IMG/VR virus record: IMGVR_UViG_3300046703_000072
Coordinates: 1-25,605 of that record
DNA length: 25,605 bases
Origin: a virus
Reading direction: 5' to 3' (one strand)
The notes beneath the pieces were generated by a model. The model was not told the origin of the DNA, ran no database searches, and saw nothing but the letters and a program-made list of their open reading frames with translations. The translations under genes and the position numbers were made by a program. The stretch's first letter is position 1. Every line of letters begins with the position of its first letter. This document shows, piece after piece, positions 4,046 to 11,991 of this stretch.

Positions 4046-5631
4046 AGTCTTTCCTCGTCTCCTGCCCATGATAAGTTAAAGCCTAAACTATCATTTCGCG
4101 TTGTCTCGAAGATATCTCTCAGAGGCGACGTGCGTCCCAGTGTGGACTTCGCACGTCCTCGTAGTTCTTTGATTGCATGATCTAGTGTCAGTGGGTCTTG
4201 AGCCCGACGCTCCTCGTCGACGGCTTCGTCTGTCATCATCGCGATGTCCCACAACGGAATCTGCATTGACAAACAGTCAATGATATCGTCGTGAGCCCCG
4301 ATTGGGAACGCTTCAAGCTCGGACATAAGCTCGATCATCCACCGTCTGATCCGTATCCGGTGTTGCATGAAGAACGGCTGAAGTGCTGAGATCTTCTGAG
4401 TCTTCGAGCCCTTACGGTGAGGAACCCCTTCAACCAGGAACCACACGTTTTCGACTTTCTGACGTTCACGAATCCAGTACTGAAGCGTTCCCTGATACGC
4501 GACGGACTCAACCCAGACCTTCAGGGGATGAAACTTCTTGACTTGGTTGAAGATCTCCACAACGACCTCACCGGGGTTCGCACGTCGACGCCAGTAATCG
4601 AGAACGTAGACGATTCCCTGACGTAACGAGCGTCCACAGGTCACGACCACGTTGTAGTCCCCGTCGGTGCCCTTTGAGATCTCAGGGTCACCCGCGAGGT
4701 CAACCGTGGTCCACGTGACGAGATCTCCCGGTACTGTCTCGTAGAACTCAAACCAGTCCTTCTTAAAGGCCATATCCACAGAAGCCATAGGCTTGTTCAT
4801 ATAAAGACACGAGAACAGGTAAGGCCCGGAACGTGAGAGTATCTTCGCAAGGGCTTCTTCACCAAAACGTTCAGGATACATAGCCGGGCCACTCTCGTCG
4901 GGAACTCCATCGCGTTCACGCACGGCTCTCTGGATGACCCTGAACGTTCTCTGATTAGCCATGATCCACGATGCAAGGTCCTTCTCGAACCATCGAGTGC
5001 ACACGACAAAGTTCTGAGACTTAAGGATATCATTAAGAAGTGGCGGAACTAACGAGTGCCAACCGATAGCCTGAGAGATGTCTTCTTTCGTGGGCACGAC
5101 GTTCATCTCCGTAAGGTCCTCGAGATCCGGGGCCACAGTGTCGTCCTCGACGATGAGGTCCCAGTGGGTCGAGGTCATTTGAGTTCTAGTGCCAGCGGCT
5201 TCGAACGTCGCCTCGGCATAGGCTCCGTTCCGAGGCACGCACTTCGAGTGCTCAGACCATGTGCACGATGCAGTGGGCACAAGGTCTGGGAACAAAAGCT
5301 TAAACATAGGGTTTTTGAAGAACACTCCGTCAAGGGTCTTGAGCTTGGCACATGCGTTACGGTAAGTGTTCTGCGTGAGTAGACACCGCACGTTAGGGTT
5401 CTGAACAGCGAGCCATACTGGATATGCGAGTGAGCACACGGTAGTCTTCAACCAGCCTCGTGGGAGAATCACCAGAAGTTCAGTAGGCTTCTTCTCGAGT
5501 TCACGACACAGTGGAAGGTGCACTGTCGAGGTCATCCAGTCAAACCCTAGAACTCCCTTCGCAAAGAAGTAAAAGTCTCGACGGGCAAGGTCTCGAAGCT
5601 CGTCTTGCATTGATGACGTGAGCTCAGGCAT
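4030..5631 (-). CDS. terL: Terminase large subunit (packaging ATPase and nuclease)
   Basis: This 533-residue protein starts at ATG 5631 and overlaps the small subunit by 8 nt. It cuts concatemeric DNA and drives it into the prohead. The ATPase domain comes first: a Walker A-like PRGWLKTT at about residue 57-64, and a Walker B hydrophobic strand with acidic pair, DLIVEDD, near 158. The C-terminal RNase H-like nuclease domain shows its first metal-binding Asp in TTVDLAGD (about 309) and a distal acidic motif in HDDIIDCLSM (about 445). Length and domain order match phage TerL. The last residues overlap the next gene start, and a palindromic operator-like motif lies in its 3' end (4068-4094). Confidence 0.93.
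   Translation of the reverse strand: MPELTSSMQDELRDLARRDFYFFAKGVLGFDWMTSTVHLPLCRELEKKPTELLVILPRGWLKTTVCSLAYPVWLAVQNPNVRCLLTQNTYRNACAKLKTLDGVFFKNPMFKLLFPDLVPTASCTWSEHSKCVPRNGAYAEATFEAAGTRTQMTSTHWDLIVEDDTVAPDLEDLTEMNVVPTKEDISQAIGWHSLVPPLLNDILKSQNFVVCTRWFEKDLASWIMANQRTFRVIQRAVRERDGVPDESGPAMYPERFGEEALAKILSRSGPYLFSCLYMNKPMASVDMAFKKDWFEFYETVPGDLVTWTTVDLAGDPEISKGTDGDYNVVVTCGRSLRQGIVYVLDYWRRRANPGEVVVEIFNQVKKFHPLKVWVESVAYQGTLQYWIRERQKVENVWFLVEGVPHRKGSKTQKISALQPFFMQHRIRIRRWMIELMSELEAFPIGAHDDIIDCLSMQIPLWDIAMMTDEAVDEERRAQDPLTLDHAIKELRGRAKSTLGRTSPLRDIFETTRNDSLGFNLSWAGDEERLCLRN
4068..4094. promoter_or_regulatory. Imperfect palindrome of the recurring ATGATARYTTA motif
   Basis: A 27-bp imperfect inverted repeat reads ATGATA at one end and TATCAT at the other, with partly matching inner arms. 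It lies inside the 3' end of terL, 23 bp upstream of the start codon of 3686-4045. The same half-site (ATGATA, purine, pyrimidine, TTA) recurs at 10615-10642, 16541-16565 and 21103-21130, each near a gene start. It is probably an operator or other regulator site; the bound protein is unknown. Confidence 0.5.
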
Positions 5632-7153: not shown

Positions 7154-7163
7154 GCGTCGGATT

Positions 7164-7186
7164 AGAACCAGAACCAGAACCAGAAC
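7164..7186 (+). repeat. (AGAACC)x3 plus AGAAC leader repeat
   Basis: Three AGAACC copies and a partial fourth lie in the leader of the small gene at 7222. The downstream segment AACTTCTAAGGAGAC nearly repeats the leader at 6567-6585. This suggests a duplicated leader with a regulatory or translational role. Confidence 0.8.
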
Positions 7187-10642: not shown

Positions 10643-10651
10643 GGAAACCCC

Positions 10652-10687
10652 TTAACCCGAGATCATCCCTAACGCACCGCGGGTTAA
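10652..10687. promoter_or_regulatory. 8-bp inverted repeat with 20-nt loop
   Basis: TTAACCCG (10652-10659) pairs with CGGGTTAA (10680-10687). The left arm overlaps the first GAAACCCCTTAACC copy, so protein binding or RNA folding could be coupled to that repeat. No T-run follows. Confidence 0.4.
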
Positions 10688-10763
10688 TCGCTTAGTAGTA
10701 GCAGGAATGGACCACCAAGGTACAGAAACACAATCCGTGAAACCCCTTAACCAGAGTTCTAGT

Positions 10764-11270: not shown

Positions 11271-11340
11271 GGCGACGATAGCTCAAGTTGCAGAGCCCTG
11301 GGAAACCAGGAGGTTGTGGGTTCAGTGCCCACTCGTCGCC
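11271..11340 (+). tRNA. tRNA-like element with GNRA tetraloop in place of the anticodon loop
   Basis: A cloverleaf can be drawn: acceptor GGCGACGA (11271-11278) with TCGTCGCC (11333-11340), TA linker, D stem GCTC/GAGC (11281-11284, 11293-11296), then CCTGG/CCAGG (11297-11301, 11306-11310), a 5-nt variable region, and T stem GTGGG/CCCAC (11316-11320, 11328-11332) with loop TTCAGTG. The anticodon stem is closed by only four bases, GAAA (11302-11305), so there is no anticodon and no U33. The acceptor helix is 8 bp, and G replaces the usual A at position 58. CCA is not encoded. It is thus a tRNA pseudogene, a tRNA mimic or another structured RNA rather than a decoding tRNA. Confidence 0.55.
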
Positions 11341-11391
11341 TTGACACTGGTGCTAGAGGCATCGTAGCACCACTGTGAGCGACAGTGTCAA
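11341..11391 (+). other. Nested hairpin overlapping the second tRNA-like element
   Basis: The outer stem is TTGACACTG/CAGTGTCAA (9 bp) and an inner stem is GGTGCT/AGCACC (11349-11354, 11366-11371) with an 11-nt loop. Its 3' arm shares bases 11383-11385 with the acceptor strand of the tRNA-like fold, so the two structures should be mutually exclusive at their junction. Confidence 0.5.
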
Positions 11392-11431
11392 CGCCAGGGG
11401 CAAGCCGCAGGTTCGAGTCCTGCCTGTCGCT
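11378..11431 (+). tRNA. Second tRNA-like element: acceptor and T arm without anticodon arm
   Basis: AGCGACAG (11378-11385) pairs perfectly with CTGTCGCT (11424-11431). The T arm is canonical, with stem GCAGG/CCTGC (11407-11411, 11419-11423) and loop TTCGAGT. Only 21 nt separate the 5' acceptor strand from the T arm, enough for one small hairpin (for example TGTC/GGCA) but not for D and anticodon arms. An upstream hairpin TTGACACTG/CAGTGTCAA (11341-11349, 11383-11391) competes with the acceptor strand. The element ends 2 nt before the ATG of the HD gene. Alternatives are a decayed tRNA or a captured tRNA 3' end such as an attachment site. Confidence 0.45.
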
Positions 11432-11433
11432 TT

Positions 11434-11991
11434 ATGGACAACGAGAAACCTATGCTTGTAATGGTTCTAGGCGGAGAAGTAGTCGATCTCAGGCACTTCA
11501 CCGAAGACGATGTTTCACTAGAACTCATCGCACACTCTCTCGCCCGTCAGTGCCGATGGCGAGGGCACCTGAGCGAGTACCGCTCGGTTGCGGAGCACAG
11601 TGTTGAAGTAGTGAATCGCTTGGTTGCGGATTTGCCGAACGGGAGTGTTATTGACACAAACGTGCTTCGGTGGGCATTGCTTCACGACGCACCCGAGACT
11701 TGGCTCTCGGACATTCGCTCGACACTCAAGTTACTAATGCCTGGACTCAGTGAGTTGGAAGACGAGATCATGAAAACCATATGGTCAAAACTATGTCCAG
11801 GCCAGAAGGTCCCTTCGGACTCTGAACAGGCTCTAGTGAAATACTACGACGTATGTGACGCAGAACGTGAGCAACAAGAACTAGTTAATAGTTTCAATGG
11901 TCAAAGGAGTCTTAAATGTCTGAACCCACAGGAAGCCCAGATAGCGTTTCTTCACGCAGCAAGAACCCTGAACCTCGGAACCTGGCACTAG
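11434..11991 (+). CDS. HD-domain nucleotide phosphohydrolase (YfbR-like)
   Basis: This 185-residue protein starts at ATG 11434. In-frame ATGs at 11452 and 11461 are alternatives, and none has a strong ribosome binding site. Family landmarks are DLRHFTEDDVSLELIAHSLARQCRWRGH, SVAEHSVEVV (first His), LLHDAPE (His-Asp pair, about residues 83-84) and YYDVCDAE (distal Asp). These are the metal ligands of HD hydrolases that remove phosphates from deoxynucleotides. In phages such enzymes adjust nucleotide pools; DatZ of Z-genome phages is one relative. No PurZ-type gene is visible here, so that special role is not supported. The 3' end overlaps the next gene by 76 bp. Confidence 0.85.
   Translation: MDNEKPMLVMVLGGEVVDLRHFTEDDVSLELIAHSLARQCRWRGHLSEYRSVAEHSVEVVNRLVADLPNGSVIDTNVLRWALLHDAPETWLSDIRSTLKLLMPGLSELEDEIMKTIWSKLCPGQKVPSDSEQALVKYYDVCDAEREQQELVNSFNGQRSLKCLNPQEAQIAFLHAARTLNLGTWH

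Follow-up and report, generated by a model that had tools for sequence, protein, structure and literature searches.

Paired tRNA-like RNAs without an anticodon loop in a phage genome, read as possible boundary signals

The window analysed here, a 25,605-nt stretch of phage DNA (IMG/VR record IMGVR_UViG_3300046703_000072, positions 1 to 25,605), contains two consecutive tRNA-like elements that have perfectly paired acceptor and T stems and no anticodon loop. Our preferred reading, to which we assign a probability of roughly 0.45, is that they are non-decoding, tRNA-derived boundary or processing signals, that is, a form of 'tRNA punctuation' acting by a mechanism that we infer. The presence of tRNAs in phages is commonly attributed to codon supply or to evasion of anticodon nucleases. 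RNAs of tRNA-like form that are unable to decode, but whose acceptor and T stems are paired in phages unrelated to one another, suggest that the tRNA fold has a separate use, be it RNA-end punctuation, scaffolding or mimicry. The window pair itself is of moderate interest; the more important result is a wider class of such RNAs, in which the acceptor stem covaries strongly.

Structure and genomic setting of the two elements

Among the phage genes of the window are those for a family A-type DNA polymerase, a primase, a ParB-methyltransferase, a Sak4-like protein and a large terminase. The two elements, together with one hairpin, lie between a gene for a 127-aa protein and an HD-domain gene on the same strand (Table 1). 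The 8-bp acceptor and 5-bp T helices that the original prediction had described as perfect in both elements were found as such, with Watson-Crick pairs throughout and with tRNA spacing. So were the GAAA tetraloop said to close the arm at the anticodon position of element 1, and the canonical TTCGAGT loop and the 21 nt between acceptor strand and T arm said to mark element 2. That is, in place of a 7-nt anticodon loop on a 5-bp stem, element 1 has a tetraloop and element 2 has no arm. Neither element combines a TTCRANY T loop with a D loop containing GG, as a tRNA does: the T loop of element 2 is canonical and its D arm is absent, while there is no GG in the D loop of element 1, AAGTTGCA, and no A58 in its T loop. 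D-loop GG and T-loop A58 build the tRNA elbow, which is therefore not normal in element 1. CCA is not encoded in either element.

Table 1. Positions of the features discussed; coordinates are those of the window unless another locus is named.
Feature	Position	Strand	Details
21-nt direct repeat	10644-10664 and 10739-10759		GAAACCCCTTAACC(C/A)GAG(A/T)TC; 90%; 95 nt apart; in the long gap 5' of the 127-aa gene
Upstream gene, 127 aa	10818..11201	+	without family match; 33-38% conserved in four relatives
Element 1, tRNA-like RNA	11271..11340	+	22/22 Watson-Crick pairs; Rfam tRNA 36.0 bits; fold z -3.75
Element 1 acceptor stem	11271-11278/11333-11340	+	8/8 Watson-Crick
Element 1 D stem	11281-11284/11293-11296 (D arm 11281-11296)	+	4/4
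Element 1 GAAA-capped arm	11297-11301 GAAA 11306-11310	+	5/5
Element 1 T stem	11316-11320/11328-11332 (T arm 11316-11332)	+	5/5; loop TTCAGTG
Inverted repeat	11338..11394	+	arms 11338-11354 and 11378-11394; 82% over 17 nt
Hairpin between elements	11348..11372	+	perfect 8-bp stem TGGTGCTA/TAGCACCA, 9-nt loop; from sequence and fold
Element 2, minimal tRNA-like RNA	11378..11431	+	13/13 Watson-Crick pairs; Rfam tRNA 28.6 bits
Element 2 acceptor	11378-11385/11424-11431	+	8/8 Watson-Crick, plus G11377-U11432
Element 2 linker	11386-11406	+	21 nt in place of D and anticodon arms
Element 2 T stem	11407-11411/11419-11423 (T arm 11407-11423)	+	5/5; loop TTCGAGT
HD-domain gene	11434..11991	+	deoxyribonucleoside 5'-monophosphate phosphatase-like; phrog_318 E 1.7e-30
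Slot hairpin, L008	3745-3826		very stable; after 127-aa gene homologue
Slot hairpin, L086	3826-3935		very stable; after 127-aa gene homologue
Slot hairpin, L087	4369-4448		very stable; after 127-aa gene homologue

The tool check proposed with the original prediction gave a divided answer. The Rfam tRNA model (RF00005, curated cut-off 29 bits) detects element 1 (E 2.8e-4 over 4227 families) and places element 2 slightly below the cut-off (single-family E 7.7e-6); ARAGORN reports neither element, and no tmRNA, in the window. Predicted folds recover both structures, although element 2 alone folds no better than its shuffles (z -0.7). With a strict scanner, the chance expectation is 0.005 elements per window-sized random sequence, and adjacent pairs arose in 0 of 400 random trials, compared with two elements within 100 nt in the window.

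The two acceptor stems differ at their inner two pairs in a paired manner (GA/TC versus AG/CT), a difference that would be compensatory if the elements were duplicates, a duplication being hypothetical. A single 162-nt tRNA that joins the 5' end of element 1 to the 3' end of element 2 was considered and rejected, as it has 7/8 acceptor pairs, including two G-U, against 8/8 Watson-Crick pairs for each element alone. The inverted repeat could offer an alternative upstream pairing partner to the 5' acceptor strand of element 2.

Could the pair be recently degenerated, functionless tRNA genes? Both tRNA fragments and pseudo-tRNAs have been described in phage-derived arrays of tRNAs and in genomes (PMC6582537, PMC9897764), degradation has already reached the elbow motifs of element 1, and relatives have no copies. 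We nevertheless consider decay improbable, because the stems are perfect: all 22 and all 13 pairs remain Watson-Crick despite changed loops and anticodon arms, and by our own rough estimate, which is not the output of a tool, the 44 stem positions would remain intact with an expectation of ~1e-6 at about 25-30% loop change. Acceptor pairing is, in addition, kept across the wider class described below. This pairing and that class support the earlier proposal that tRNA-like RNAs, here probably of tRNA descent, are maintained without an anticodon.

The same proposal had offered captured attachment-site sequence as one origin, and a host tRNA gene would be its source. Phages often carry 3' tRNA fragments (PMC9897764), but element 1 has both the 5' and the 3' acceptor strand as well as a D arm, element 2 has a 5' strand of its own, and none of the window genes that were examined was recognised as an integrase. 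We therefore regard this origin as very improbable.

The setting of the HD gene bears on function. Its ATG (11434) follows 3 nt after element 2 and has no Shine-Dalgarno sequence, whereas comparison of upstream sequences shows one for most genes of the plus-strand run; the true start may be an internal ATG. In the mechanism that we propose, the tRNA top half (acceptor plus T stem), which is the part kept in both elements, would be recognised or cut by host RNase P on the 5' side and by RNase Z or RNase E on the 3' side; alternatively, the element folds would themselves shield a 3' end. The 3' end of the 127-aa mRNA would in either case be set at the elements, which would separate the upstream mRNA from the HD message, and the latter would then begin almost at its AUG. 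A cut at the 3' side of element 2, as in tRNA maturation, would thus make the HD message nearly leaderless. Transcription across the elements, their cleavage and the identity of the enzymes are all presumed in this scheme.

The corresponding position in relatives and beside GOLLD RNA

IMG/VR queries with the HD protein and with the single polymerase sequence returned no relatives; alignment searches with the polymerase led to about 150 loci. None of these carries a copy of the two elements, and a DNA search of GenBank phages with the element region gave no match. Over 50 relative records, RF00005 gave one weak match. Long inserts in these relatives conceal the elements from the model, and a structural scanner for tRNA-like elements was therefore written.

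The nearest relatives with the upstream gene are L008, L086, L087 and L088, whose polymerases are 50%, 46%, 44% and 41% identical to that of the window. In all four, the 127-aa gene has a homologue (33-38%) and the order of genes is in large part preserved. The structural scanner found no tRNA-like element in their slot after this gene, and tblastn found no HD homologue in them. Instead, a strong hairpin directly follows the upstream-gene stop in 4/4, with z values of -5.7, -5.6, -4.4 and -4.1, respectively, each for the best of several windows scanned. The hairpin sequences are unrelated, and that of L086 is followed by a T run in the manner of a terminator. What the slot seems to need is therefore structure rather than a tRNA in particular.

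Ordinary hairpins in the slot would also be expected if element 1, the hairpin and element 2 formed a plain structural stabiliser, namely a 3' barrier, or if element 2 and the inverted repeat formed an attenuating switch, the tRNA resemblance being incidental; an alternative fold indeed pairs the 5' strand of element 2 with upstream sequence. We judge this to be quite improbable, since the canonical T loop of element 2 and the D, T and acceptor layout of element 1 produce a significant tRNA-model score.

A second setting is provided by Streptococcus phages, which L211 matches. A tRNA or tRNA-like RNA begins 4-11 nt past the 3' boundary of GOLLD RNA in 6/9 GOLLD loci; none was found after GOLLD in the three pneumococcal-type loci. 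This RNA is a normal tRNA in L302, L303, L306 and L309; among these four, one is a Phe tRNA, two are Ser tRNAs and one is a suppressor. In L211 it begins four positions past the boundary (7161 to 7165) and is anticodon-deleted, with 9 nt replacing the anticodon arm and variable region, and in L305 it is altered, acceptor and T arm being separated by 81 nt. That a single GOLLD-adjacent position is occupied now by a decoding, now by a non-decoding form suggests that the end structure, not decoding, is what is conserved there. GOLLD has been described near tRNAs, or containing them, including a pseudo-tRNA (PMC12286853, PMC6582537).

Minimal elements of the element-2 type, with an acceptor, a linker of 12-14 nt and a T arm, recur in Streptococcus phages. 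That of JX01 (TGAGACG, 14 nt, T arm, CGTCTCA) lies 5 nt before a DNA block shared with L211 that contains GOLLD, and Javan527 and others have the JX01 stems with a 12-nt linker. The scan for such elements gives no covariation, because it returns mostly one near-identical sequence. A different tRNA-like family of Streptococcus phages was also observed upstream of terminase genes (L304 4460-4564, L306 2069-2175, L309 1669-1768), with ATGAACCGTGATTGGAAAACGGTA(G/A)(A/G)GGTAGCGCC after the acceptor strand.

Taken together, the slot hairpins in all four relatives, the GOLLD-adjacent position at which end structure persists and decoding does not, and the HD ATG that follows within 3 nt without a Shine-Dalgarno sequence make a 3' processing signal, one of the roles originally suggested, the best-fitting function; structures far above chance were counted in its favour as well. 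Counted against boundary signals are the elbow motifs that element 1 lacks, a deficit that may impair its recognition by RNase P, the absence of the window pair from relatives, whose slot hairpins may be plain terminators, and the existence of long-insert RNAs that punctuation alone does not explain.

A wider set of phage tRNA-like RNAs without a standard anticodon arm

Replacement of the anticodon region was seen in distant polymerase relatives, for example in L054 (8986-9194), L068 (2190-2281), L082 (364-552), L130 (161-260) and L139 (1698-1818). A scan of IMG/VR for Leu-like elements, defined by a Leu-type D arm, 51-111 nt and a T arm, with the acceptor left unconstrained, gave 47 loci, compared with 3 in 84,980 bacterial and archaeal species genomes. 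Distinct elements number 39; the seven bases on either flank pair fully in 35 of them and at six of seven positions in the remaining 4, and none (0/39) has a standard anticodon arm. Over 36 distinct acceptor rows, 98.4% of cells pair, against 57% when shuffled and 40-56% when slid, and 115 cells are changed on both sides where 29 are expected, a score reached by 0/500 shuffles. This covariation is a property of the class set and not of the window elements, which share with the class paired acceptor and T stems and the lack of a standard anticodon arm.

Introns were rejected as a general explanation of the Leu-like set, in which a split anticodon arm was found in 1/35 (0.25 in shuffles); for part of the class-I set they are genuine (11/46, against 0.15 in shuffles). 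Nine of these 11 intron-like cases fall at exactly one site, between positions 28 and 29. They are phage tRNAs with Lys, Ile, Asn and Pro anticodons (L238, L240, L244, L248, L251, L254, L274, L281 and L282), several of them on IMG/VR contigs over 200 kb, in which an apparent intron of 42-56 nt interrupts the anticodon stem within its 5' strand; removal of this intron restores five pairs and a 7-nt loop. The inserts of the Leu-like set give a moderate pseudoknot signal (23/39, against 14 in shuffles, maximum 19), which is absent from those of the class-I set.

Seven loci, six of them distinct, came out of a short-form scan in which a class-I D arm had to be followed by the T-arm motif after no more than 21 nt. 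The acceptor is fully paired in four (L208, L209, L211 and L213), and these four are similar to element 1. In L213 there is a short arm of 4 bp, and ACCA is encoded. Phage tmRNA is also carried by L209 and L213, and in L174 and L202 tRNA-like RNAs lie inside tRNA arrays.

Two further observations concern individual members. L224, L237, L241, L243, L283, L294 and L297 carry a conserved tRNA-like subfamily with an insert motif like GGTGAAGGACC...GGTAAAGCAAGCC, beside normal phage tRNAs. BS-TP2, a described phage of Bacteroides salyersiae, has an unannotated intergenic tRNA-like element (L207 3001-3121; Rfam 40 bits) whose insert also occurs in the isolate-derived IMG/VR contigs L162, L168, L186 and L191.

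The main rival to boundary signals draws in part on this wider set. The RNAs might act in trans as tRNA mimics or decoys, that is, as free small RNAs that occupy host tRNA-binding factors (synthetase, EF-Tu, modification or defence enzymes) and offer no anticodon loop to cut. The top half is intact, the anticodon arm is sealed by a stable GAAA loop or absent, unrelated phages keep such RNAs with strongly covarying acceptors, and some members lie in tRNA arrays or near phage tmRNA. Northern detection of T4 RNAC as a separate late RNA (PMC9697503, PMC3014915) fits as well, and a decoy function better explains the elaborate inserts kept elsewhere. For the window pair, however, we consider it unlikely: the loops of element 1 lack the elbow motifs that such factors read, element 2 lacks a D arm, CCA is not encoded, and adjacency to an ORF start suggests a role in cis.

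Most members of the class are missed by ARAGORN, and no description of a non-decoding phage tRNA-like class was found in the open-access literature. We see about an even chance that phages carry such a class, widespread and largely unannotated, in which selection keeps the top half, whereas the anticodon arm has been lost, has been capped or has given way to a domain of roughly 50-180 nt that is often pseudoknot-capable. Within this class, the window pair would count as minimal members and T4 RNAC as the earliest one observed.

Comparison with known systems

With canonical phage tRNAs (RF00005) the window elements share the acceptor and T stems and, in element 1, the D stem, with model scores of 36.0 and 28.6 bits; they differ in having no 7-nt anticodon loop and no encoded CCA, and element 1 lacks the tertiary motifs of D loop and T loop. 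tmRNA (RF00023) likewise has a tRNA-like end without an anticodon arm, but the window elements have no reading frame, no pseudoknots and no Rfam tmRNA match, and the linker of element 2 is only 21 nt. The theta (HDV-like) ribozymes of phage tRNAs are another phage device at tRNA ends; they are self-cleaving and lie downstream of tRNAs (PMC10879173), and none was detected in the window. Elsewhere, a possible theta ribozyme sequence, GACAGCACGGANAGACGG or similar, was observed between tRNAs in L166, L172, L174 and L188, and L188 also has a type II hammerhead (4897-4967).

Closer in form are the Streptococcus elements of L303, L311 and L211, in which an acceptor and T arm joined by 12-14 nt recall element 2, and an anticodon-deleted tRNA recalls element 1. 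Their stem sequences are different, and their neighbours are GOLLD RNA or, on the downstream side, terminase genes.

T4 RNAC (species 1 RNA, NC_000866 70908-71046) has been confirmed by Northern blot as a separate late RNA of unknown function (PMC9697503, PMC3014915). Its T arm, CCGGG-TTCGAAT-CCCGG, is perfect, its acceptor-like ends pair at 5/7 positions, and a long hairpin takes the position of the anticodon arm. Unlike the window elements, it is 139 nt long, has an incompletely paired acceptor and lies in a tRNA cluster, and the comparison showed no sequence relation between them. By its architecture, T4 RNAC may belong to one class with the other non-decoding tRNA-like RNAs. With candidates in described phages, namely T4, Bacteroides phage BS-TP2 and Streptococcus phages, its role becomes a testable question about a class.
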